From: Desulfobulbaceae bacterium
GTDB lineage: Bacteria; Desulfobacterota; Desulfobulbia; Desulfobulbales; VMSU01
Assembly (NCBI GenBank): GCA_013792005.1
Contig: VMSU01000093.1
Coordinates: forward strand, 1-38,880
DNA length: 38,880 bases
Direction: 5' to 3'
The position numbers were made by a program, and so were the translations under genes. This document shows, piece after piece, positions 7,375-28,626 of the stretch. The notes beneath the pieces were generated by a model, which was not told the DNA's origin, ran no database searches, and saw nothing but the letters and a program-made list of their open reading frames with translations. Each line of letters starts with the position of its first letter. Position 1 is the stretch's first letter.

Positions 7375-8232
7375 ATGGCAAAGAAAGCGTTACTTGTTGG
7401 AATCAATGACTACAAAGGAATCAGTGACCTGCGCGGGTGCATCAACGATGTTACTAACATGCGGGATATCCTGAAGACCTATCTCGGCTTTACCAACAGA
7501 GATATCCGCGTCTTGGTAGACAGTCGTGCAACCAAAGCGAATATCGTTTCCCGGCTCCAGACTATGGTGAGCACTGCCAAATCAGGCGATTTTTTGGTGT
7601 TTCATTTTTCCGGCCATGGCTCCCAGATCCGTGATCGCAATGGCGATGAATTGGAAGACCAGATGGATGAACTCATCTGCCCCTATGATATGGACTGGGA
7701 CGGCACCTTTATTACCGACGACTCTCTCAACAGCATTTTCAGCAAACTGCCCAAAGGCGTGCTGCTTGAAGTTTTTCTGGATAGCTGCCACTCTGGCACC
7801 GGTCTCCGTGATATTAACTTTGGACGTCCGGCAAATTTAGGACCGGAACACACCACCCTGGATCGGTTCCTTGCTCCACCCGCAGACATTGAATGCCGCC
7901 TTGAAGGAGAGGAAGATGATCTAAAGTCCCCGCGAAGCTTCAGAAGCGCCAATCGCAGCACAGTCCACCACATCCTCTGGGCCGGCTGCAAAGACAACCA
8001 GACCTCGGCAGATGCTTTCATCAACAACAGTTACAATGGGGCCTTCACCTACTTTTTCTGTAAACATATGCGTGCCAGCGGCGGCACTCTTTCCCGCAAA
8101 GAACTGCTGAGCCGGGTGAGACAATCTCTCAGGAACGACGGCTATTCCCAAATCCCGCAACTCGAATGCGAAGCGACGGTTCGCAACGCTCGCAGCCTGA
8201 CCGCTACCGAAAAGGCCAAAAGCAAAAAATGA
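7375..8232 (+). CDS. metacaspase/orthocaspase (peptidase family C14)
   Basis: 285 residues with a complete caspase-like p20 core: LLVGINDYKG at the N-terminus, catalytic His81 in FHFSGHGSQ, the acidic substrate-pocket loop DELEDQMDELICPYD, and catalytic Cys138 in FLDSCHSGT. The family cleaves after Arg or Lys, often needs calcium, and in prokaryotes is linked to stress responses and programmed death. There is no signal peptide, pro-domain or fused effector or sensor, so it is a minimal cytoplasmic form. The acidic insert EGEEDDL (about 178-184) lies where the p20-p10 linker is expected. AGAGGAG precedes the ATG by about 8 bases and a terminator follows the stop, so it is a single-gene unit. 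No dedicated partner is evident next to it. Confidence 0.9.
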   Translation: MAKKALLVGINDYKGISDLRGCINDVTNMRDILKTYLGFTNRDIRVLVDSRATKANIVSRLQTMVSTAKSGDFLVFHFSGHGSQIRDRNGDELEDQMDELICPYDMDWDGTFITDDSLNSIFSKLPKGVLLEVFLDSCHSGTGLRDINFGRPANLGPEHTTLDRFLAPPADIECRLEGEEDDLKSPRSFRSANRSTVHHILWAGCKDNQTSADAFINNSYNGAFTYFFCKHMRASGGTLSRKELLSRVRQSLRNDGYSQIPQLECEATVRNARSLTATEKAKSKK

Positions 8233-8537: not shown

Positions 8538-9335
8538 ATGAAACGACACATTGGACTTTTCCTAGGCATCCTCCTTCTGACAGGGGCAAAAACCACCTTT
8601 GCCACCAGTTACTACTATACCTTCGAAGTAACCTCAGTTTCGCCAAACAACACCGGGATACCCCCCGCCTCCATCATCGGGCATAAATATATATTTTTTG
8701 TTGATCCTGACCGCAATGGTTTCCTTCCCTCAGGAGCTTCTAGCTCTAGTTTTTTTTACGCTCATTTGATGAACAATGCTGAGTTGGCAAGACTAACCCC
8801 TGAGTTTTTATCTTTAATCGGAGTTGTAGTCGATACCCTGCCCCCTCCCTTCGATCCTTCAAAATATGGTAACATCCTCTTTGATGAGTACAGCGACAAC
8901 AATCCCGCTAACACCATTATTATAGATTGGGGATCTTCGGACTCTTCGATAAAACAGCTTGAAAGCACCAGAACTCCTGTCCCTGGCAGCTACGGGGATA
9001 AGAACCACCTGTTCGGCCTGAACATATTCAAAGAAGGCAATATGTTCACCATGCAGGATTATGGTGAGATATTAATTACCTACAAACACCCAGTCTACAA
9101 AAAGGACGCCGCTGGCAAAACGATCTGGGAAGGCGGAAACAAGGTGATTGATTATTATGAGCCAGACACATATGCTCCCCAATTTACTCTGCTGCAGACA
9201 ACAGTCAAACTGACCCACATCACCCCAGTCCCTGAACCTGCCACCTTCATTCTGTTCGGTTCAGGACTGACGGGTCTAGTGGCGGCACGTAGGAAAAAGA
9301 AATCGAGAGCCAAGAGCTGGGCCATTATACAATGA
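8538..9335 (+). CDS. PEP-CTERM exported protein
   Basis: 265 residues. A signal peptide covers residues 1-23 (MKRHIGLFLGILLLTGAKTTFA). The C-terminus has the PEP-CTERM tripartite signal: VPEPATFILFGSGLTG, a short membrane helix, and a basic tail (AARRKKK). Such proteins are processed by exosortase and are tied to exopolysaccharide or biofilm matrix. The body is Ser/Thr/Asn-rich with aromatic strands and no domain I can name. No exosortase or EPS locus is in the window, so its sorting enzyme must be elsewhere. The gene has a weak AG-rich leader rather than a clear ribosome binding site. It appears monocistronic. Confidence 0.85.
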   Translation: MKRHIGLFLGILLLTGAKTTFATSYYYTFEVTSVSPNNTGIPPASIIGHKYIFFVDPDRNGFLPSGASSSSFFYAHLMNNAELARLTPEFLSLIGVVVDTLPPPFDPSKYGNILFDEYSDNNPANTIIIDWGSSDSSIKQLESTRTPVPGSYGDKNHLFGLNIFKEGNMFTMQDYGEILITYKHPVYKKDAAGKTIWEGGNKVIDYYEPDTYAPQFTLLQTTVKLTHITPVPEPATFILFGSGLTGLVAARRKKKSRAKSWAIIQ

Positions 9336-16363: not shown

Positions 16364-16422
16364 CAACCGTAAACCGGTAACGGGCAACCGTCAACCGTCA
16401 ACCTGACTATCAACCTGACTAT
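16364..16422. repeat. Family A partial copy ending in a 12-bp tandem duplication
   Basis: AACCGTAAACCGGTAACGGG and CAACCGTCAACCGTCAACC match one end of family A. The end is duplicated in tandem: CAACCTGACTAT at 16399-16410 and again at 16411-16422. The second unit stops 9 bases before the jetA start codon, where a ribosome binding site would normally be. Confidence 0.55.
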
Positions 16423-16431
16423 TTACAATTC

Positions 16432-18006
16432 ATGACAAACCCGGCTCATCAAGAAAAATCCCAGTTGCTCGGGGCAGAGGCACAGTCTGCCTTTGAACAG
16501 GGAGCTGGACGCCATCTGATCACCAGCCGCAACCGTCAACTAGGGTCGCTCCTGAGCTCGGAACGCGGCATCTATTACACCCAAATTCTCTACCGCATGC
16601 TTATGTTCAAGCGCGAGCATGAGCTGGAACCTCTCTACGAGGACATCTTCCAGGCAGTACGACCGGCTCAAAATACCATTGAATCCGGTGACTACACCAG
16701 CCAGCAATTCCGAACCGACATGGCTCAATTAGCGGAATGGGATCTGGTTCACTTCAGGATTGAAAAGGAACGGTTGCGTGGGTATCGCGACAACCGCAAG
16801 AGGAAATTCCGCTACACTCTGACCGATGAATGCGCTCGCTTCATTGAGTGGCTGGAAAGCCGTCTGGCCGACGACTTGGAAGAGCGTGGCCATGACACCC
16901 GCGACCTGCTGCAGGAGGTCTGCGGCTCCTTGAACGAATTGCTCCGCCTGCTCCATCATCTCCGCCGGGATGACGATTCACAGGGAGATTCCGCCCGTCG
17001 GATCATTTTCCAACTCTTTAAGATTGAAGACTTGACCCGCGCCATTACCGCCGGTCTCATTGAATTCAATGGTCGGCTCCTACAGTTTATCATTCAGAGC
17101 TATAACATTGCCGAAATCAAGGCCATCATCAGTGAACTCGATACATATGTCCACAGTTTCCTGAGCCAGGTCTATGCCCTACGGCGAGAGATCATCCCCC
17201 TCATCACTCGCTTGCAGCAAGAACAAAACCAGAACAAGCTTGACCTGTGTACCCGAATCATGGAGGCTGAGCGCTTGCGCTCCCCACATCTTTTACAGGG
17301 CATGAGGGAAGCGGCACGAGTTGGCATCGTTGCCGGGTTGCACTCCTTTTATATCGAGAACGGCAAACTGGATCAACTCCATCAACGCATCGGCGCCTCA
17401 GTCCTCAAAGTCTGGCAGAAACTCCGCAGCCACCTGCGGGAACTGGAACGTAAAAACAATCGCCTCCAGGATCTGCAAAGCCGGATCAATGAGATTACCA
17501 CGCTCCCTGAAGATCATGCTCCTCAAGCCTTTATGGCCAACCTCTTGGCCCCGGCCCATCGCTACAGCGACCCACATTACTGGGATGAACATGAAAAGGC
17601 ATCACCCCCGGAACCTCGCCGCCGAGTGAGTATGAAAGAGGCTGTAAAACATAGCTATCTCCCCCGCAAACAGCAGGCCGACCGACCGGTGCAATCCATG
17701 GATGAAGCACGACTTACAGATATGGCCACATGGCTTGCCCAAGCAATCATGCGTGGAAGTTCCGACCAGGCCAAGGTCTCACAGGGCCAATTTATCGACT
17801 ACAGCGATCTCCGCAAAGTAATGGACCTTGCCCAGGCTGGCTACCTCGACAACGGCAGACGGCTCGACCGCATCGATTACCAACTTACCGATGATAGCGA
17901 TGTTATTCATCTCACGGCCGGTGAGCAGGCCTTGAGTCTCCGAGAGATTATCGTTCAACAAAAATCACCCGCTTTAACAGGAAACAAGTTATGGAATCCA
18001 AATTAG
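16432..18006 (+). CDS. JetA-like kleisin-type subunit of an SMC (Wadjet/MukBEF-like) system
   Basis: 524 residues, first gene of a four-gene overlapping operon. Residues about 40-140 look like a winged helix (SSERGIYYTQILYRML, FRTDMAQLAEWDLVHF, RKRKFRYTLTDEC). Long helices and a coiled-coil-like middle (about 200-370) follow, then a small C-terminal domain (FIDYSDLRKVMDLAQAGYL). This matches a MukF/JetA-type kleisin that bridges the SMC-like heads. The call rests mainly on operon context (KITE-like, SMC-like and Toprim genes follow) and length. I cannot assign the Wadjet subtype; the N-terminus also recalls DUF2397 proteins. The start ATG has no Shine-Dalgarno sequence and directly follows a repeat. 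Its 3' end overlaps jetB by 16 bases. Confidence 0.7.
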   Translation: MTNPAHQEKSQLLGAEAQSAFEQGAGRHLITSRNRQLGSLLSSERGIYYTQILYRMLMFKREHELEPLYEDIFQAVRPAQNTIESGDYTSQQFRTDMAQLAEWDLVHFRIEKERLRGYRDNRKRKFRYTLTDECARFIEWLESRLADDLEERGHDTRDLLQEVCGSLNELLRLLHHLRRDDDSQGDSARRIIFQLFKIEDLTRAITAGLIEFNGRLLQFIIQSYNIAEIKAIISELDTYVHSFLSQVYALRREIIPLITRLQQEQNQNKLDLCTRIMEAERLRSPHLLQGMREAARVGIVAGLHSFYIENGKLDQLHQRIGASVLKVWQKLRSHLRELERKNNRLQDLQSRINEITTLPEDHAPQAFMANLLAPAHRYSDPHYWDEHEKASPPEPRRRVSMKEAVKHSYLPRKQQADRPVQSMDEARLTDMATWLAQAIMRGSSDQAKVSQGQFIDYSDLRKVMDLAQAGYLDNGRRLDRIDYQLTDDSDVIHLTAGEQALSLREIIVQQKSPALTGNKLWNPN

Positions 18007-18650
18007 CCGGTCTGCTGGAGCGTAGTGGCGACAAGGTCCGCGCGGTGCTCAACATCATGATGGAGAGCCCCTATTTTTACTGCGATGATAATCCCGACCT
18101 CTTTTTTTTCTTAAAAAGACACCGTCAGGAATTTACTGAATTTTTCGAGATTTTTTACAACTGGTCCCTGCTGATGGACAGTAAATGCGCCCGGGCTTAC
18201 AAAACCGAGTGGCACAACACCGCTATTGCCCCAAGCGCCCGAACCCTGTTCTCCTTCACCAAGCGGGATGAGTGCCTGGCCTTCATGATAATCCTTGAGT
18301 TCTACGAACACCAACTGGAAGAGAACGGCATGACCGTGGAGGACAAGGAGAATCTACGTTTTCGCTTCGGAGACCTGCTGATCCATGCCCAGCGTCGTTT
18401 TGCCCTCTGTTTTCCTGATAAGGCCAGCCAGTATTCAGAAGAGTATGTCCGGGCCAAAATCCTCAAGCCTATCCTGCCGGAACTAGAACGATACCGCTTT
18501 CTCAAACGGATTGATCCACCCGATGATCTCAGCGCCAGCGACGACGATATGATCTACGAAGCCTTACCCGCCATCTACCATTACAACGCCAATGCCTTGA
18601 GCCGGATTATTCCTGAGCTACAACAACAGACTGAGGTTCCGGCCGAATGA
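17991..18650 (+). CDS. JetB-like KITE-type subunit (MukE analogue)
   Basis: 219 residues, second gene of the operon. It overlaps jetA by 16 bases and jetC by 4 (ATGA), indicating translational coupling. The protein is helical, with the phrases FFLKRHRQEFTEFFEIFYNW, FSFTKRDECLAFMIILEFYE and a C-terminal segment IYEALPAIYHYN. The size and position between the kleisin-like and ATPase genes match JetB/MukE, a winged-helix KITE protein that binds the kleisin. I see no catalytic motif and expect a structural role. The family call is contextual. Confidence 0.65.
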   Translation: MESKLAGLLERSGDKVRAVLNIMMESPYFYCDDNPDLFFFLKRHRQEFTEFFEIFYNWSLLMDSKCARAYKTEWHNTAIAPSARTLFSFTKRDECLAFMIILEFYEHQLEENGMTVEDKENLRFRFGDLLIHAQRRFALCFPDKASQYSEEYVRAKILKPILPELERYRFLKRIDPPDDLSASDDDMIYEALPAIYHYNANALSRIIPELQQQTEVPAE

Positions 18651-20896
18651 CCCCGCCAACCCCTTATCAGATCACCCGCATCAGGCTGATCAATTTCCAC
18701 AATTTTGTCGATGAGACCATCGACCTTGCCCATGGCGGCCATCTCTTCCTGCTGGGCGATAACGGTTGTGGCAAAACCACTATCCTTGACGCCATCCACT
18801 ATGTGTTAACTGTCGGCCAGTCCCTGGAATGGAACGCCGCCGCACGGGTCGCAGGATCAAAACGGGAAGGCCGCCGAATCCAGGGCATTGTCATGCGCTA
18901 CAACCTCGATTGCGGGGCCATCAACCGCGATGGCGGCATCACCTATGCCCTACTCGAAATAGAGGGTCGCCATGGCCTCCCACTCACTGTCGGCATGGGC
19001 ATCTCAACCTCAGCGATGGATGAGCGGATAAAACAATGGGGGATTATCCGCGAATGCCCCATTGCGGACATCCCGCTGCTGATTGAAGACGAACAGGGTC
19101 GTCGCCCTGCCGATCGCCTTGAACTCAAGGAACTTCTCAAACAAAAGGGCGGGTTCCACGGTGAACCCAAATCCTACCAGCATGAATTGGCTCGCCGGTT
19201 GTTTGGAGGAGAGGAGAATTTTCAGGAGGTTTGTCGATTCCTGGCCATGGGCAAAGCCTACCGGGAAATTGCCTCACAGTCCGCAGATTACCATGAATTG
19301 TTCAAGAGTTTGCTGCCGGAACCAAAAACCGAAATCTTCGAACGGATCATCGACGCCTTACGTACCCTGGACCAATCAAAATCCATCCTGGATGATCTGG
19401 AAAGAAAACTGCATTATCTTAAAAGCTTGCAGAGTTTCACGCTGAATATCGCAGCCGACAGTGAGGCATCGATACGCTACCAATGGCTTTCGTGGCTGAT
19501 GCGAGAAACTTTTTCCAAAAACTCGATCGAGACATTGCGTCAACAGATAGCCAGTCGCCAACAAGAAATGGCCCAACTCATAGCATCAAGACAACAGGAG
19601 GAAGAGACTGAAGCGTCCTTACGCACACGACTCGACGACCTGATGACCAAAGATTCTGCCGGCTTGGTTCGCCAGGAAAAAGAAGGGCGTGAGGAGTTGA
19701 GCAGAAAAGAACGAACCCTGGCCAAAAAAAAGAAAGAGTGCCAGAACCTTAGCAAAATTCAACAGGCCAGCACACGAAAGCAGGCCGAACAGCACCACAC
19801 CTTGGTCCGCCAAGTATCCGGTCTGCATAGTGAATTAGGTCAAGGCGCAAGCCTTCTACCTTTCTCCATCTCCCAACTACTGACAACACTGGACACGATA
19901 GGACGCTCTGAGGAGATAATTACTCAGGCCTTGGATTTTGGCGTCCAAGAGTTTTCCAACCTGGTGTCTGACACTCGAGATCAAGAACTCCGTCAACTGA
20001 CCCTTCTTGAACAAGAGGGCGAAACCATATCCAATACCATAACGGATCTCACCACCGAGTGCCACAGGCTTCGCGCCATGGACGAAGCGCAACCCATCCT
20101 CCCCGGCTGGACCGACTGCCTCGCTGCAATGCGCACCGGAATGCTCAACCCCCGCCCCCTTTATTCCGGCCTGGAGTGGCGTCCTGGACTCTCTCGTCAA
20201 GAACAAGAGACCATTGAAGAGTCAATCGGCCAAGAGATCGCCGCCACCTTGGTGCTTAGCGATCCCGAGTTTGAAGCGGGCCGCGGGATCGCTATTCTCT
20301 GGCCAGGAATCAGAATCAGCTGTCCCGGTCGAGGACTTGACTCCTTACCGGACTGGATGCGCACGGCCTTTGACCTGACTCAATCGAATCCCACCTGCTT
20401 ACGCTGCCTGGCCGCTGAAATGCAGTGTGATTTCGGACCGCTGGTTAGTGTCGTCAATAATCGTAGGGTATTAAGCTTCCGCAGTCATGACCGCGGCCTG
20501 CTCGGCAACCCGGCCCGACTTATCGGCGAGAATAGCCGCAGGGAGGCTATCAAGGCCGAGATCAAAGGTCGTGAAGACGAATTACGTCAATGGTCGCGGC
20601 AACAGACAGAACTTAACCGGCGCCTCAAAACCATCCGCGAGACTGTGGAGCGCCTGGACAACTTTACAGTAAAGCTTAGCACTGGGATCAATAGCATCCA
20701 GCAGACAGCACGACTAGCCTCCGAGTGCAGCCAGAAATTAACTCAAGATAACGCCCTGCTTACTCTCCACAACCGCCAGCACGAAGAACTTGCCCGAGAA
20801 ACCACCCTCTTATCTACACGAATCCAAGACCTGACTCATCTCATCTCATCCAACAGGAGGGACTGGCTTCCTTGGAGGGCAAGATCAGTCAATTAA
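18647..20896 (+). CDS. JetC-like SMC-type ATPase, N-terminal part (frame broken)
   Basis: 749 residues. The N-terminus is an SMC/RecN/MukB-type ATPase half: RIRLINFHNFVDETI, then Walker A GDNGCGKT (37-44) and ILDAIHYVLT. Long coiled coils start at about residue 290 (for example QEMAQLIASRQQEEETEASL) with a hinge-like globular section near 480-660. The Walker B and signature motifs are absent here and are found in the next reading frame (20872-22113). The break is at a CTCAT triplet array at 20835-20849; removing one unit joins both parts into one 1153-residue protein with continuous heptads. After the array this frame runs 15 aberrant codons to a stop at 20894-20896. In Wadjet systems JetC is the DNA-loop-extruding motor. 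As sequenced, only a truncated protein would be made. Confidence 0.8.
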   Translation: MTPPTPYQITRIRLINFHNFVDETIDLAHGGHLFLLGDNGCGKTTILDAIHYVLTVGQSLEWNAAARVAGSKREGRRIQGIVMRYNLDCGAINRDGGITYALLEIEGRHGLPLTVGMGISTSAMDERIKQWGIIRECPIADIPLLIEDEQGRRPADRLELKELLKQKGGFHGEPKSYQHELARRLFGGEENFQEVCRFLAMGKAYREIASQSADYHELFKSLLPEPKTEIFERIIDALRTLDQSKSILDDLERKLHYLKSLQSFTLNIAADSEASIRYQWLSWLMRETFSKNSIETLRQQIASRQQEMAQLIASRQQEEETEASLRTRLDDLMTKDSAGLVRQEKEGREELSRKERTLAKKKKECQNLSKIQQASTRKQAEQHHTLVRQVSGLHSELGQGASLLPFSISQLLTTLDTIGRSEEIITQALDFGVQEFSNLVSDTRDQELRQLTLLEQEGETISNTITDLTTECHRLRAMDEAQPILPGWTDCLAAMRTGMLNPRPLYSGLEWRPGLSRQEQETIEESIGQEIAATLVLSDPEFEAGRGIAILWPGIRISCPGRGLDSLPDWMRTAFDLTQSNPTCLRCLAAEMQCDFGPLVSVVNNRRVLSFRSHDRGLLGNPARLIGENSRREAIKAEIKGREDELRQWSRQQTELNRRLKTIRETVERLDNFTVKLSTGINSIQQTARLASECSQKLTQDNALLTLHNRQHEELARETTLLSTRIQDLTHLISSNRRDWLPWRARSVN
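20835..20849 (+). repeat. three tandem CTCAT units causing the jetC frameshift
   Basis: CTCAT occurs at 20835-20839, 20840-20844 and 20845-20849. With two units the reading is THLIQQEGLASLEGKISQL, in frame from the N-terminal part into the C-terminal part. Three units shift the frame. Gain or loss of 5-base units by slipped-strand mispairing is a known route to on/off switching. Confidence 0.75.
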
Positions 20897-22113
20897 CAAC
20901 CAAACTCAAACGACAACGAGAAGCGATCAGTCGAATCGACACCCGGCTAGGAGGGGCCGAGACCGAGCAGCGGAACGACAACGATGCCATCAACCGCAAG
21001 GAAGCGGAGCAAAGTGACGCAGAAATTCAGCGAAATGCCTGCGCCGAACAATTGCATACCTTGATTCCTGAGCTTATCGATATCGACCATTATGTCCTGC
21101 GCACCAAGAAGGGCATGCAGTTTAAAACCCTGGAGTCGGTGCAAAAAGAGCAAGAGGGGTGTAACAGGTCCATTCATGAAAACCGAATCCGCCTTCGGGA
21201 GCGATTAAACGATCCTGAGTTCGGCGCAGCCTTCCGCTTCCAGTATGAGGAGAAAGACAACGAGGTCCTAGATTTCCGGGGGAGAAAACTTAACGAAATC
21301 GTCACTCACTTAGGGGGCGAAATCAATGAGCAACATGAAATTATCAACGAACGGACTAAGGACCTGTTCAAAAAAATCATCATGACCGAATTGGTCAATT
21401 ACCTAAGGGCTCACGTCAGCCAACTTGACCAGATGATCCGCACCATCCGCAACAAGCTTGACCAGCGCACCTTTGGTAATCAGCGCTACCGCTTCCGGAT
21501 CAAGCCGCTGGAAAAATACAGTCGACTGGTGGCGGTAATCAACAAATTCAGCCCCTTTGACCCGGCAGCAGAAGAGGAATTGCGGCATTTTTTTGAAGAC
21601 CACAGACAGGAGATCATCAACACCGAGGTCGGGAATATTCCAGAAGAGCTGGATTACCGGAACTGGTACCGCTACGAAATGGAAGTAACAGCGACCGGCG
21701 ATCACGGAGTGGTCATGGATCGGAGAAATAAGAGCATCGGCTCCGGCGGCGAACAGGCAGTGCCCAATTACCTGTTGGTGCTAACTATCGCCCATTTTCT
21801 CTACCACGGCAAGAAGGTGAAACTCCATACCCTGCTCTTTGACGAGGCCTTCTACGGCATCGATGCCGGTCGCCGCGACCAACTCTTGGGCTTTGCCACC
21901 GACCTCGGGCTGCAACTCTTCGTGGCCTCACCAGATCAAGATGGTGTGCGCCGCGAAATCAGCTATTCCACCACTATCCTGGTCAAGAAGGACACTAACT
22001 TCGATATCCATCTCTACCCGTATCATTGGCAGAATCCCGATAACGTTAGACAGATCGATCTCTTTGCGCAACCACAGGACCCTGAACCGATTGAGTTCGG
22101 GGAGGAACTGTAG
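20872..22113 (+). CDS. JetC-like SMC-type ATPase, C-terminal part
   Basis: 413 residues in the -1 frame relative to the upstream part. The frame may begin at TTG 20872, and AGGAGGG at 20855-20861 sits 10 bases before it, so independent translation is conceivable. It begins in coiled coil (EGKISQLTTKLKRQREAI) and ends in the second ATPase half: the ABC-type signature region KSIGSGGEQA (287-296), Walker B TLLFDEAF (320-327), and a D-loop/H-loop region FVASPDQDG. These complete the composite ATPase begun at 18647. The stop TAG is immediately followed by the jetD start. The genuine gene is almost certainly the fusion of both parts, as in all SMC-like ATPases. Confidence 0.8.
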   Translation: MEGKISQLTTKLKRQREAISRIDTRLGGAETEQRNDNDAINRKEAEQSDAEIQRNACAEQLHTLIPELIDIDHYVLRTKKGMQFKTLESVQKEQEGCNRSIHENRIRLRERLNDPEFGAAFRFQYEEKDNEVLDFRGRKLNEIVTHLGGEINEQHEIINERTKDLFKKIIMTELVNYLRAHVSQLDQMIRTIRNKLDQRTFGNQRYRFRIKPLEKYSRLVAVINKFSPFDPAAEEELRHFFEDHRQEIINTEVGNIPEELDYRNWYRYEMEVTATGDHGVVMDRRNKSIGSGGEQAVPNYLLVLTIAHFLYHGKKVKLHTLLFDEAFYGIDAGRRDQLLGFATDLGLQLFVASPDQDGVRREISYSTTILVKKDTNFDIHLYPYHWQNPDNVRQIDLFAQPQDPEPIEFGEEL

Positions 22114-23358
22114 ATGACACGAGTCATCAAAGAACTTCTTAGGCAGTATCCCTGCCTCCGGCCATACCTGGAAAAGATCTGCCAACGAGTCGATAAACAG
22201 GGCGAACTGAAAGGAGTCATGAAGGTCGGGCAGAGTCTGAACAGGGAGGATTTGGCAGCTCTCAAGGCCTTTTTTGGCTTGCGGGCATTGTCCCTGTCGC
22301 GGACTGGGGAAGTACGGCTGAACTGGACACGATTCTTTGAAGGAAAAACTGAGTCTGGGGTCAAGGAATGGGTCAGTGCTCTTTTCCACGCCCTTGATCT
22401 TCCCAGAGATGACCACAGACAAAAGACACAATCCGAAATCCAGGCGGCAACACTTCTTGTCGAAAGACTGCGTTTGGCCTATCCGGAACTACACGATATC
22501 CACCAGTACCTTATCAAAACTCTGCCAACCCTGGCCAGACAGATCGCCCGTCACGGAGAAATGGCAGTAGCACGTTCATTTCACGCTGCGGAAATCATCC
22601 ACTTCCTCCGTCAAAACCAAGATCCATTGACTTTCTCCGAACTTGGCGCCCGTTTCCTGAACGACTCCAAAACCCTGCGCGACACAGAACTGAGCCGACT
22701 CATTGCCTCTTGGCTGATCATCCAGGAAGAGACCGAGGATGGTTCATGGCAAGAGTCCGCATCAGCATTATGGGAACGATACCACATAGTTCGTGACCGC
22801 TTGGCAGTGCAAGCCACCATCTTTGGCCCCTTGCTCTATCAAAAGGATAACCAGACCTATGACTGGATTTTTCGTCTCTGGCAAAATAACGAACCGGCCA
22901 CCCTTTCCTGGCCCAATATCGCAGGCATAACACGACTCTGGCTAGCGCCAGGCCATGAAGATAAGAATGAGTTGATCACCATTGAGAATGAAACCCCTTT
23001 TACCCGTCTGATCAGAGAACGTCATCCCGGCACCCTGCTCTACACCGCAGGTTTCCCCAACGACGGAGTAACAGCACTCTACCGACTCCTCGACCAAGAT
23101 CATCGCCGCCACTGGGGAGACAGTGACCTTGCCGGCCTCAGGATTGCCGCTATTCTCAACACCATTCGACCGTTGCGCCTCTGGCGATGTGACCAAAAAA
23201 CGCTTCAACGCCACGACATCCAACTGATTCCGCTACAGGAGAATCAAGCCAGACAGATTACAGACTTCCTCACCAGGCACCCGGACTTCCCCTTTACACT
23301 CGAACTCCAATTCACTTTGGATCATGGCTGGCTGGAGCAGGAAAGTTGGCAGCTGTAA
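22114..23358 (+). CDS. JetD-like Toprim-domain nuclease subunit
   Basis: 414 residues, last gene of the operon. The start ATG touches the jetC stop codon, with GGGGAGGAA a few bases upstream. The N-terminal 220 residues are helical with winged-helix-like parts. The C-terminal about 130 residues fit a Toprim fold: ELITIENETPF with the first acidic residue (Glu291 or Glu293), LLYTAGFPNDGVTALYRLL, and the paired acids in HWGDSDLAGLRIA (Asp336, Asp338). In Wadjet, JetD is the nuclease that cuts plasmid DNA trapped by the JetABC motor. The DUF2399/DUF2220-like C-terminus is my reading from motifs, not a database result. Confidence 0.75.
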   Translation: MTRVIKELLRQYPCLRPYLEKICQRVDKQGELKGVMKVGQSLNREDLAALKAFFGLRALSLSRTGEVRLNWTRFFEGKTESGVKEWVSALFHALDLPRDDHRQKTQSEIQAATLLVERLRLAYPELHDIHQYLIKTLPTLARQIARHGEMAVARSFHAAEIIHFLRQNQDPLTFSELGARFLNDSKTLRDTELSRLIASWLIIQEETEDGSWQESASALWERYHIVRDRLAVQATIFGPLLYQKDNQTYDWIFRLWQNNEPATLSWPNIAGITRLWLAPGHEDKNELITIENETPFTRLIRERHPGTLLYTAGFPNDGVTALYRLLDQDHRRHWGDSDLAGLRIAAILNTIRPLRLWRCDQKTLQRHDIQLIPLQENQARQITDFLTRHPDFPFTLELQFTLDHGWLEQESWQL

Positions 23359-23672: not shown

Positions 23673-23981
23673 ATGGCAATCAACATTGAACAAAAAAAAA
23701 TTGTAAAAAGTGACCTTGTCAAGCAACTACAAATAGCTCCCGAGATCACAAAAATTATTGTCTTCGGATCGTTTTTACACGACGACGCGCCAAATGATAT
23801 CGATGTTGCAATCGTCCAGAATAGCAATCTGCCCTATCTCGCCCTGGCCATGAAATATCGAAAAATGACTCGTGCCGTGGCCCGACAACTCCCTTTAGAT
23901 ATCATTCCGCTCAAGATGGGGGCAAAGGATTGTACTATCATGGATGCTATAGCCCAAGGCGAGGTTATCTATGAAAGATGA
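23673..23981 (+). CDS. MNT-type nucleotidyltransferase, antitoxin of an MNT-HEPN pair
   Basis: 102 residues. It has the minimal nucleotidyltransferase core: IVFGSFLHDDAPNDIDVAIV gives the GS motif (32-33) and the DxD pair (Asp42, Asp44), and LPLDIIPL gives the third acidic strand. In MNT-HEPN modules this protein inactivates the HEPN toxin by adding AMP groups. The 3' end overlaps the HEPN gene by 11 bases. GGAG lies about 10 bases before the ATG. The upstream 140 bases probably carry the promoter. Confidence 0.85.
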   Translation: MAINIEQKKIVKSDLVKQLQIAPEITKIIVFGSFLHDDAPNDIDVAIVQNSNLPYLALAMKYRKMTRAVARQLPLDIIPLKMGAKDCTIMDAIAQGEVIYER

Positions 23982-24357
23982 AACCAGGCTCTGGCTAGCC
24001 TACGCTCAAGAGAATCTGGCTTCGGCTCGGGTGCTGCTTGAAAGCGGCCTCTTCAACCCTTGCCTGCAAAATGCCCAGCAAGCGGCAGAGAAATCGTTAA
24101 AAGCGTGTCTGATTGAGCAAGGACAAGCAATCCGCAAGACGCACAGCATTAATGAACTTGCCGCCATGTTGACAGCGGTTCATTGTGATTGTGGCATGAG
24201 CGAGGAGGAGTGTGATCTCCTCGATACAATATATCTGCCGTCCAAGTATCCTCTGGGGAGTATTCTGCCGGATTTTGTACCAGACCTTGAACTGTGTCAG
24301 AGATGCTTGACTATTGCCGAAATGGTTATTGTGAAGGTACACTCACTCGTCAATTAA
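23971..24357 (+). CDS. HEPN-domain protein, toxin partner of the MNT protein
   Basis: 128 residues, all-helical HEPN type: WLAYAQENLASARVLLESGL, then CLQNAQQAAEKSLKACLIEQ, THSINELAAML and a C-terminal helix rich in hydrophobics. HEPN proteins of these pairs are ribonucleases or RNA-binding toxins. A canonical RxxxxH motif is not evident (only RKTH at 55-58), so catalytic activity is uncertain. Coupled to the MNT gene by an 11-base overlap. A toxin-antitoxin role fits the surrounding defence-like genes. Confidence 0.85.
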   Translation: MKDETRLWLAYAQENLASARVLLESGLFNPCLQNAQQAAEKSLKACLIEQGQAIRKTHSINELAAMLTAVHCDCGMSEEECDLLDTIYLPSKYPLGSILPDFVPDLELCQRCLTIAEMVIVKVHSLVN

Positions 24358-25611: not shown

Positions 25612-28600
25612 ATGTCAACCTTTCCCATCGAACATCGTCTGCTATTGAAACCATGGTTTGCCAACCAGACCCTGCAGCAAGCAGAGATCGAAATGGCCAA
25701 GGCCCAAGCGCCTGAGATAATCGTTTACCGTCACTCAGCCGCAGCTATCTTTGCCGACGAGCAGGGGTGGTGTCTGATCAAATTTCAAGTGGCCCCTCAG
25801 TTGAGCCAAGGATTTCGACCCGTCGCTGCAGTCTGCTCACGATGCAATCTTACCCGTCAGAATGGCGATCTTTGCTCCCATCTTGCCACCTTGTGCTCAC
25901 AGGTCATGGTGGCAGTATCAGAACAGATTCTCCCTCTCCCTTTGACCTTCGGCTCGAGCCGTTGGGCGGCAATTGCCAGGTTTCTCAATCAACACGACGA
26001 GAGGCTCAGTATTTCCACCCGCCCGAATCATCTGCATCTGACTAACAACTCCCTGACGATGCGAGGTATGCTGGCTAATGATGATCTGGAACTAGCCAGA
26101 CGTCTTTTTCCGGAAAAGGGCTGGTCCGTACCAATCGAGGTCAGAAATGAGCACGATTCAATTCTCCAGCAAACATGGCGACGTCTCCATCAACTAGAAC
26201 GGACAGATTCTGAGATATCCCTTAATCAGTGTGGCACAACAAGCCAAGGTCAGCGTCTGGCAAGAAGCCTGTGGACCTTTTTGTGTCAGACCTTTTGCCG
26301 CTTAGCCACATCCCCCACTTGGCGGCTGGAGCGAGACCACGAGGGAGAGTTTTCCTTGTTTGCCGATTCTCCTTCGCATCAGGAAATCTTTAAGATAACT
26401 CCATCCCGTGAACTCCTCCTCGACTTCCTGCAGCAGATCAATCTCTTTGACCTGATCACCAAGACCGCTCCGGCAAGGGCATACTCAAAAATATTCTTTT
26501 CTCCAGAGTCTGGTGACTTAATCATCGAACCTTGGCTGGAGCTTGCCGACGGGTCCCGTCTTCGCCGCGAGTCAATTAAAAACACCCGCTTCGGCAGGAA
26601 CTACTCACTGAACAACACGATATTTTTCACGGTAACTGAGCAAGGACATGATTTCAATGACCATGCCGACAGTGCCTTCCCGCTGTTTACTATCGCTCAA
26701 CCACAAAACTACCAGACACTCGTTATTGCCGCCACCGATGTGCCGGATTTTGTCAAAAAACACCACACCTTCATGCTCCAGGGAGGCCATGACCTTGATC
26801 CGGCACTGCTCAATTTTTCACTAACCGACCTACCGGACACCCTTGAAATTGTCAATTATCGTGAGGATGGAAATTGGTGCTTGCTTGATGCCAGATATGG
26901 ATTTGGATCCAACCGGATTGAACTTACAGAAATCATTCGCTTACGACGAGAAGGGGCCAGACATATCGCTGGCCGTGACACCTGGCTCCAGATTGACTAT
27001 ACCCCTTTAAGCTGGATGTATGGACTGGGACCGGAACGGCTCGAGTCTGTCGGCAAACGGACAGTTATTCGGTTAACCAAGCGAGAGATGATGGCAATAA
27101 CCGCTCTGGTGCCAGAGATCATCTATCCAGAGAGAGAAGATTTCCGCGCCATTATTCGCCGGCGTATAACATCTGAGATACCCGACACCCTGCTTGATGC
27201 AGAGATACCACCGCACCTTCGAACCTATCAACGTCAAGGACTGGCCTGGCTTCACCACTTGCAAGATAATGGAGTAGGCGGAGTGCTCGCCGATGACATG
27301 GGCCTGGGAAAGACCCATCAAGCACTGGCCCTGCTGGCACTGTTGGCAAAAGAGAAAGGATTCCGGACATTGGTAATCTGTCCCGCCTCGGTTTTACCCC
27401 ATTGGCAGGACAAGGCCGCTACCTTCTACAGCGACTTGAACCTGAAGGTATATTACGGAGCCACCCGATCAGAGAGTGAACTTGACAGCCCGGCCATTCT
27501 CTTGACTACCTACGGCCTGATGCGCCAAGATATTGAGCTGATCAAAAACAAACATTTTCAGGTGGTAATCTTTGACGAAATCCAAAATCTGAAAAATAAA
27601 CAAACTGCAACCCACCAAGCCGCCAAGCAGATACGAGCCGAAGTAGCTTATGGTTTGACCGGAACCCCGATAGAGAACTCCCTCACCGATCTGAAGGCCA
27701 TCTGTGACCTGTGCGTACCCGGCCTGCTCGGTTCAGATGCCTCATTTCAGTCGATTTATGCCGACCCTATTACCTCAGGCAGCAACACCCATCGAATTGA
27801 CTCGCTCAAACGCATGGTCGGCCCTTTTATGCTCCGGCGAGTCAAGGAACAGGTGCTTACCGAACTCCCAGAGGTGATCGAAGATATCCGCACCTGTGAA
27901 CTGAGCGATGACCAGATTGCCCTCTACCGCCGTGTCATTGACAACGACGGTCACGATCTGCTCTCCTCGCTAGAAAATTCCCCCACACCAGTGATTCCTT
28001 ATATGAAATTTCTGGCTGTGGTCCAGGAACTCAAGCAGATATGCAATCACCCCTGTCAAATTTTGGGAAACACTGACTACCAGAACTATCGCAGCGGCAA
28101 ATGGGATCTCTTTGTTGAGATATTACACGAATGCCTGGACGCAAGTCTGAAAGTAGTTGTCTTTAGCCAATACACCAAAATGCTCAATATTGTGGAAGCT
28201 TATCTAAAATCAGAAGATATCCCCTACGCCGGGATTCGAGGGAATATGGCGCTAAAGACGCGCCGCAAGATGATCGACCAATTCAACAACGATCAGACAA
28301 CAAGAATCTTTTGTGCCAGTCTGCTAGCCGGGGGGACCGGCATTGATCTAACCTCGGCTCAGGTCGTTATTCACTACGACCGATGGTGGAACGCAGCCCG
28401 TGAAGAACAGGCTACCGCCAGGGTACACCGTATGGGACAAAAACATGTAGTGCAGGTATTCAAGTTCATCAGCCAGGGAACTATGGAAGAGAAAATCCAC
28501 CGCCTGATAAATCGCAAAAAAGATTTGGTAGACGATGTTATTCAGACAGACGACGAATCGTTTGTCAAGCGACTTACCAAGGAAGATTTACGGGAACTCC

Positions 28601-28626
28601 TTCGTTGGGAGCAAACAAGTATCTAA
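25612..28626 (+). CDS. SWIM zinc-finger SNF2-family helicase-like ATPase
   Basis: 1004 residues. A SWIM-like zinc site lies near the N-terminus (Cys75, Cys78, Cys88, His90). About 400 residues of uncharacterised beta-rich sequence follow, then a full SNF2 motor: motif I DDMGLGKT (561-568), motif II DEIQ (655-658), motif III LTGTPIENS, and motif VI ARVHRMGQKH (about 937-946) in the second RecA lobe. The family translocates on double-stranded DNA and remodels protein-DNA complexes; bacterial members resemble HepA/RapA. SNF2/SWIM genes are common in defence islands and this one follows the MNT-HEPN pair and intron, but no known multi-gene system with it is recognisable. The ATG 25612 lacks a clear ribosome binding site. 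Probably monocistronic. Confidence 0.85.
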   Translation: MSTFPIEHRLLLKPWFANQTLQQAEIEMAKAQAPEIIVYRHSAAAIFADEQGWCLIKFQVAPQLSQGFRPVAAVCSRCNLTRQNGDLCSHLATLCSQVMVAVSEQILPLPLTFGSSRWAAIARFLNQHDERLSISTRPNHLHLTNNSLTMRGMLANDDLELARRLFPEKGWSVPIEVRNEHDSILQQTWRRLHQLERTDSEISLNQCGTTSQGQRLARSLWTFLCQTFCRLATSPTWRLERDHEGEFSLFADSPSHQEIFKITPSRELLLDFLQQINLFDLITKTAPARAYSKIFFSPESGDLIIEPWLELADGSRLRRESIKNTRFGRNYSLNNTIFFTVTEQGHDFNDHADSAFPLFTIAQPQNYQTLVIAATDVPDFVKKHHTFMLQGGHDLDPALLNFSLTDLPDTLEIVNYREDGNWCLLDARYGFGSNRIELTEIIRLRREGARHIAGRDTWLQIDYTPLSWMYGLGPERLESVGKRTVIRLTKREMMAITALVPEIIYPEREDFRAIIRRRITSEIPDTLLDAEIPPHLRTYQRQGLAWLHHLQDNGVGGVLADDMGLGKTHQALALLALLAKEKGFRTLVICPASVLPHWQDKAATFYSDLNLKVYYGATRSESELDSPAILLTTYGLMRQDIELIKNKHFQVVIFDEIQNLKNKQTATHQAAKQIRAEVAYGLTGTPIENSLTDLKAICDLCVPGLLGSDASFQSIYADPITSGSNTHRIDSLKRMVGPFMLRRVKEQVLTELPEVIEDIRTCELSDDQIALYRRVIDNDGHDLLSSLENSPTPVIPYMKFLAVVQELKQICNHPCQILGNTDYQNYRSGKWDLFVEILHECLDASLKVVVFSQYTKMLNIVEAYLKSEDIPYAGIRGNMALKTRRKMIDQFNNDQTTRIFCASLLAGGTGIDLTSAQVVIHYDRWWNAAREEQATARVHRMGQKHVVQVFKFISQGTMEEKIHRLINRKKDLVDDVIQTDDESFVKRLTKEDLRELLRWEQTSI

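Follow-up and report, generated by a model that had tools for sequence, protein, structure and literature searches.

A third CTCAT unit divides jetC of a divergent Wadjet operon between two reading frames: probably a recent loss of function

The window, by which we mean the whole 38,880-nucleotide stretch of Desulfobulbaceae DNA analysed here, carries four adjacent and co-directional genes on the forward strand, jetA-jetB-jetC-jetD, whose order is the same in relatives. The first of these, jetA (16432–18006; 524 aa, DUF2397), is intact, matches Pfam PF09660 (41 bits) and PADLOC JetA2, and is co-linear with its relatives at 58–61% identity; jetB (17991–18650; 219 aa, DUF2398-like) is likewise intact (Pfam PF09661, 27.8 bits; PADLOC JetB2/JetB1) and about 71% identical to its closest relatives. 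The last, jetD (22114–23358; 414 aa), is intact with a DUF3323 N-terminus and a JetD_C domain (PF09983, 34.9 bits against a cut-off of 22), and is present in a single copy, being the only protein of the genome to match JetD_C. The product of jetC is a MukB-like SMC ATPase according to Pfam and PADLOC models and its motifs: Walker A, hinge, signature and Walker B, expected in one JetC polypeptide, are all present and are distributed over two frames. An N-terminal ORF (18647–20896; 749 aa) covers the Walker A head, the N coil, the hinge and the first part of the C coil, with its last 16 residues being out of frame, and a C-terminal ORF (20872–22113; 413 aa from a TTG) covers the rest of the coil, the signature and Walker B. 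The motifs are separated in just the way that a sequence-only reading of this DNA had proposed, with Walker A (GDNGCGKT) in the N part and both the signature (GSGGEQ) and Walker B (LLFDEA) in the C part.

The same reading had identified the gene as jetC, and this identity is borne out by its place in a complete jetABCD (Wadjet) operon; membership is assigned because the relatives are intact and the other three genes match. The locus shares with the anti-plasmid SMC system Wadjet (JetABCD / MksBEFG / EptABCD) the gene order jetA-B-C-D, the DUF2397 and DUF2398-like proteins, a MukB-like SMC ATPase with Walker A, signature and Walker B, and a JetD_C nuclease subunit, and differs from it in that jetC is here divided between two frames. 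By analogy with the type, the operon is predicted to serve in the cleavage of small circular plasmids. None of JetA, JetB, JetC and JetD comes near the curated NCBIfam cut-off of its best model, which indicates a divergent Wadjet group, and since JetC in addition fits the PADLOC JetC1 and JetC2 models about equally, the Wadjet type is uncertain. A direct search of solved structures with the two jetC halves of the window gave no match, whilst a profile search of solved structures matched JetC (9qe0).

The division of jetC coincides with a short tandem repeat. Three perfect CTCAT units lie at 20835–20849 on the forward strand (CTCATCTCATCTCAT), as had been claimed, and are followed by one more C, such that the period of five extends over 16 bases. 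As sequenced, the frame opening at 18647 ends at a TAA at 20896; the C-terminal frame, which is open from 20752, overlaps the N-terminal ORF, with the TTG at 20872 being the first common start that gives the listed 413-aa ORF to 22113. When the number of units was varied in silico, the frame was uninterrupted with two units (1153 codons plus stop) or with five, and was not restored with 0, 1, 3, 4 or 6 units; the earlier arithmetic, by which removal of one unit creates a single frame of 1153 codons plus stop, is therefore correct. No other pentamer triplet is present in the window, for which 0.05 are expected, or in 0.94 Mb of the genome, for which chance alone predicts about 1.4; across the full 4.0 Mb the exact 15-mer has a single occurrence. 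By itself the array is thus at chance level genome-wide; its coincidence with a frame break is not.

In order to place the array in an evolutionary context, some 85,000 species genomes were scanned, which yielded 75 jetC loci in this divergent Wadjet family; the last hits of the scan (L099–L103) were left out as unrelated or too weak. Of these loci 67 are open through the site, four are cut by a contig end and four are frame-broken elsewhere. None of the 67 open relatives carries a tandem CTCAT at the corresponding site, and the two-unit version of the window aligns with them free of gaps at the position of the array: this is seen for the two-unit window LTHLIQQEGLASLE against L025 LEALIQQEGLTDLE, and for the closest relatives L024 (53% identity) and L025 (52%), whose SLINQEGLTDLE and ALIQQEGLTDLE stand against the two-unit window HLIQQEGLASLE with no gap. 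The absence of the array from all 67 relatives, together with the gap-free two-unit alignment, indicates that two units are ancestral and that the third is specific to this lineage. The jetC frame is broken in 4 of 71 relatives (L029, L081, L091 and L094), in each case at another site and without a comparable array: L081 has poly-A runs, L091 no simple repeat, and in L094 the break falls at N's. The remaining case (L029:1508-5018) is a second Desulfobulbaceae jetC, whose break falls a little farther down the same coil and has the appearance of a deletion of some 25 codons together with a frameshift. In L060, three CGAAT units stand in an intact jetC frame, and pentamer triplets hence also occur without a break. 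The best-matching named genomes belong to Desulfobulbaceae and relatives, with close homologues within the window's own order, and the divergent group is now documented in Desulfobulbales, Lentisphaerae, Verrucomicrobia, Kiritimatiellae and others.

The age of the break was assessed from the conservation of the coding sequence on its two sides. Near-invariant JetC positions were defined by a conservation of 95% or more across the 67 relatives (n = 113), and 112 of these are kept in the window: one departure is found among the 63 positions before the break and none among the 50 after it. The ratio of JetC identity after the break to that before it is 1.25 in the window, compared to 1.24 for pairs of intact relatives. 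As a rough bound, about 1–2% nonsynonymous change per site would already show in an unconstrained jetC. Given the retention of 112 of 113 positions and the normal identity ratio, the break is either recent, absent from most cells or tolerated; the absence of further lesions would be no less expected of a gene that is on part of the time.

We consider it probable that a fresh duplication of one CTCAT unit has disabled an otherwise intact Wadjet JetC, with reversion at a low rate, and that the array is not a dedicated switch. The array, the frame arithmetic, the two-unit ancestry given by the gap-free alignment and the otherwise intact coding sequence are the observations on which this explanation builds. 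The starting point would be a normal, until recently functional JetABCD operon, with which the intact state of jetA, jetB and jetD and their co-linearity with relatives are consistent. Slippage or a short tandem duplication would then have taken jetC from two units to three; slipped-strand mispairing, as already suggested, is the natural cause of a frame break by one unit. The resulting +5 shift is expected to stop translation at 20896, beyond the hinge and some way into the descending coil, and to leave an N-terminal product with Walker A and without signature and Walker B, for which reason JetC ATPase activity and plasmid cleavage should be lost. Wadjet cleavage requires a working JetC ATPase (PMC10586767), and the products of jetA, jetB and jetD, though intact, should not act without it. 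Loss of a unit could restore the frame, but should be rare at three units, which would make this a revertible loss-of-function allele rather than a dedicated switch. A second Wadjet system covering the loss of jetC was considered and rejected, there being no other JetD in the genome; the other SbcC_Walker_B match, in a 1230-aa frame, is probably SbcC. The three-unit allele could be favoured under plasmid selection. A natural loss of Wadjet, expected to ease plasmid uptake, is also found in Clostridium cellulovorans, where spontaneous loss of jetABCD raises plasmid uptake (PMC12287153); that case is a deletion of jetABCD, whereas the jetC lesion described here is a 5-base duplication known from sequence alone.

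The main rival to a fixed loss-of-function mutation is an assembly error or a minority variant, in which case jetC would have two units and be full-length in the majority of cells, and the contig would represent a three-unit path taken during assembly. This fits a draft genome of 252 contigs and 4.0 Mb in which the window is one whole contig, as well as the lack of any sign of decay in the rest of the operon, and, among 71 mostly metagenome-assembled relatives, four have a broken jetC, in one case with N's where the frame breaks. However, short reads far exceed the 15 bases of the array, 5-base insertions are generally an uncommon error of such reads, and no frame break is seen in those other long genes of the window that were examined, which leaves us to regard this explanation as unlikely.

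A different question is whether the two halves of jetC might work together. TTG 20872 is preceded, at a distance of 11 bases, by an AGGAGG (20855–20860, forward strand) that could serve as an internal ribosome-binding site, and the upstream ORF reads on for 24 bases past the TTG before it stops; reinitiation at the TTG could rescue some JetC function, and in a functional split JetC the two polypeptides would assemble the head with the break at an elbow of the coil. The structural model of the L024 JetC (mean pLDDT 77.8, pTM 0.46) places the hinge at approximately residues 498–629, followed by a helix at 638–743 and a low-confidence coil break at 744–751, opposite which the other strand is also interrupted, at 343–350. 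The array is accordingly predicted, with low confidence in this region, to encode the last helix turn or residues directly before an elbow-like interruption of the coil. The site had been described as lying within the coiled coil: in the model it does fall at the end of a long helix, but next to the elbow-like interruption and not in mid-coil. The coincidence of the break with this predicted interruption speaks for a split protein, and since JetC might tolerate being split at an elbow better than in the middle of the coil we retain this alternative at low weight. Yet the AGGAGG is merely inherited coding sequence for Gln-Glu-Gly that is common to intact close relatives, a TTG with an 11-base spacer is a weak start, no relative is split at the corresponding site, and the frame overlap contains no classical -1 slippery heptamer, nor is AGG very rare; a functional split JetC thus appears highly improbable. 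Programmed -1 frameshifting was rejected on the same grounds, the overlap being free of any X XXY YYZ heptamer and the frequency of AGG being 6.2 per thousand.

It had also been proposed that the array switches jetC on and off, that is, that it represents an evolved contingency locus toggling Wadjet at high frequency. The perfect tandem pentamer, with two or five units in frame and three out, and the intact remainder of the gene are in keeping with this, and phase variation through simple sequence repeats is known for restriction-modification genes (PMC7157529). The pentameric repeats of Neisseria opa genes offer the closest parallel, being coding-sequence arrays in which the unit number sets the frame; however, arrays of at least five units are counted as phase-variable there and most opa genes carry such arrays (PMC5953494, PMC7157529), whereas jetC has three units, late in the gene and in one genome only. 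Published surveys count pentamer arrays as phase-variable only from five units upwards (PMC6321876, PMC5953494), a minimum that the jetC array does not reach, and opa genes with 1–4 repeats are called non-phase-variable (PMC5953494). During meningococcal carriage, the Opa mutation rate per month rose with array length, from 0.007 at five units or fewer through 0.09 at 6–8 to 0.16 at nine or more (PMC7157529). In meningococcal mod genes the tetra- and pentanucleotide arrays range from 3 to 37 units (PMC7157529), and three units can therefore be the low state of a varying array. The genome argues against this: in the 0.94 Mb covered it has one pentamer triplet against 1.4 expected, is not enriched in 4–6-base arrays and shows no 4–6-base unit with more than three copies. 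Nor is the jetC of the relatives enriched in simple repeats (22 against 31 expected from synonymous shuffles), and the 67 open relatives lack the CTCAT array. Of the marks of a phase-variable gene, jetC thus displays a frame-restoring unit number, and lacks at least five units, an array in homologues and an array-rich genome. There is no positive evidence for an evolved switch beyond the frame arithmetic, and toggling at high frequency seems to us very improbable. The claim of a switch is not supported by the unit number, the relatives or the repeat content of jetC and genome; recent loss of function and an assembly or minority variant, which had been named as the dull alternatives, fit better. 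We are just as sceptical of a slow, selected contingency locus, through whose short array a fraction of cells drops Wadjet immunity and accepts plasmids, and it is conjecture that a Wadjet-off allele permits plasmid uptake. If such a switch existed, we would know of no earlier phase-variable Wadjet (the literature searched pairs both terms only in a review), and it would let populations give up immunity to plasmids in return for taking them up. On present evidence the case chiefly illustrates a recently disabled anti-plasmid system and advises caution against equating a three-unit repeat with a switch.

Concerning the surroundings of the operon, no JetC match was found in the same-genus genomes G001–G003, which marks the Wadjet operon as accessory; the MscS neighbour gene, sought for a syntenic empty site, has no orthologue in the genus. 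Plasmid and viral origins were both rejected, with no match among 72,556 plasmids and only a partial match, at 25% identity, in viral contigs. Directly downstream of jetD, at 23673–24357, lie adjacent Polbeta nucleotidyltransferase and HEPN genes that likely form an MNT-HEPN toxin-antitoxin pair, and at 25612–28626 a SNF2 helicase (1004 aa) matches DpdE/ZorD defence-system models below the NCBIfam curated cut-offs. On the other side, a caspase-domain (Peptidase_C14) protein of 285 aa is encoded at 7375–8232, followed by a PEP-CTERM protein at 8538–9335. Just upstream of jetA, TRF and the sequence itself reveal a degenerate heptamer (CAACCGT-like, 5.7 copies) together with 12-mer repeats on the forward strand (16364–16422). 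The genome has scattered heptamer arrays of the YAACCGN/TAACTGA kind (window 16364-16422, L108:5598-5633, L116:4572-4715, L166:925-958 and 16385-16418). The three-unit heptamer pattern gave no match in three same-genus genomes, nor did the reversed pattern give any, whilst it has 16 overlapping matches in this genome, one set of which ends just before jetA. These arrays are similar to TAACTGA repeats known from intergenic regions of Beggiatoaceae, cyanobacteria and Bacteroidetes (PMC4679880).
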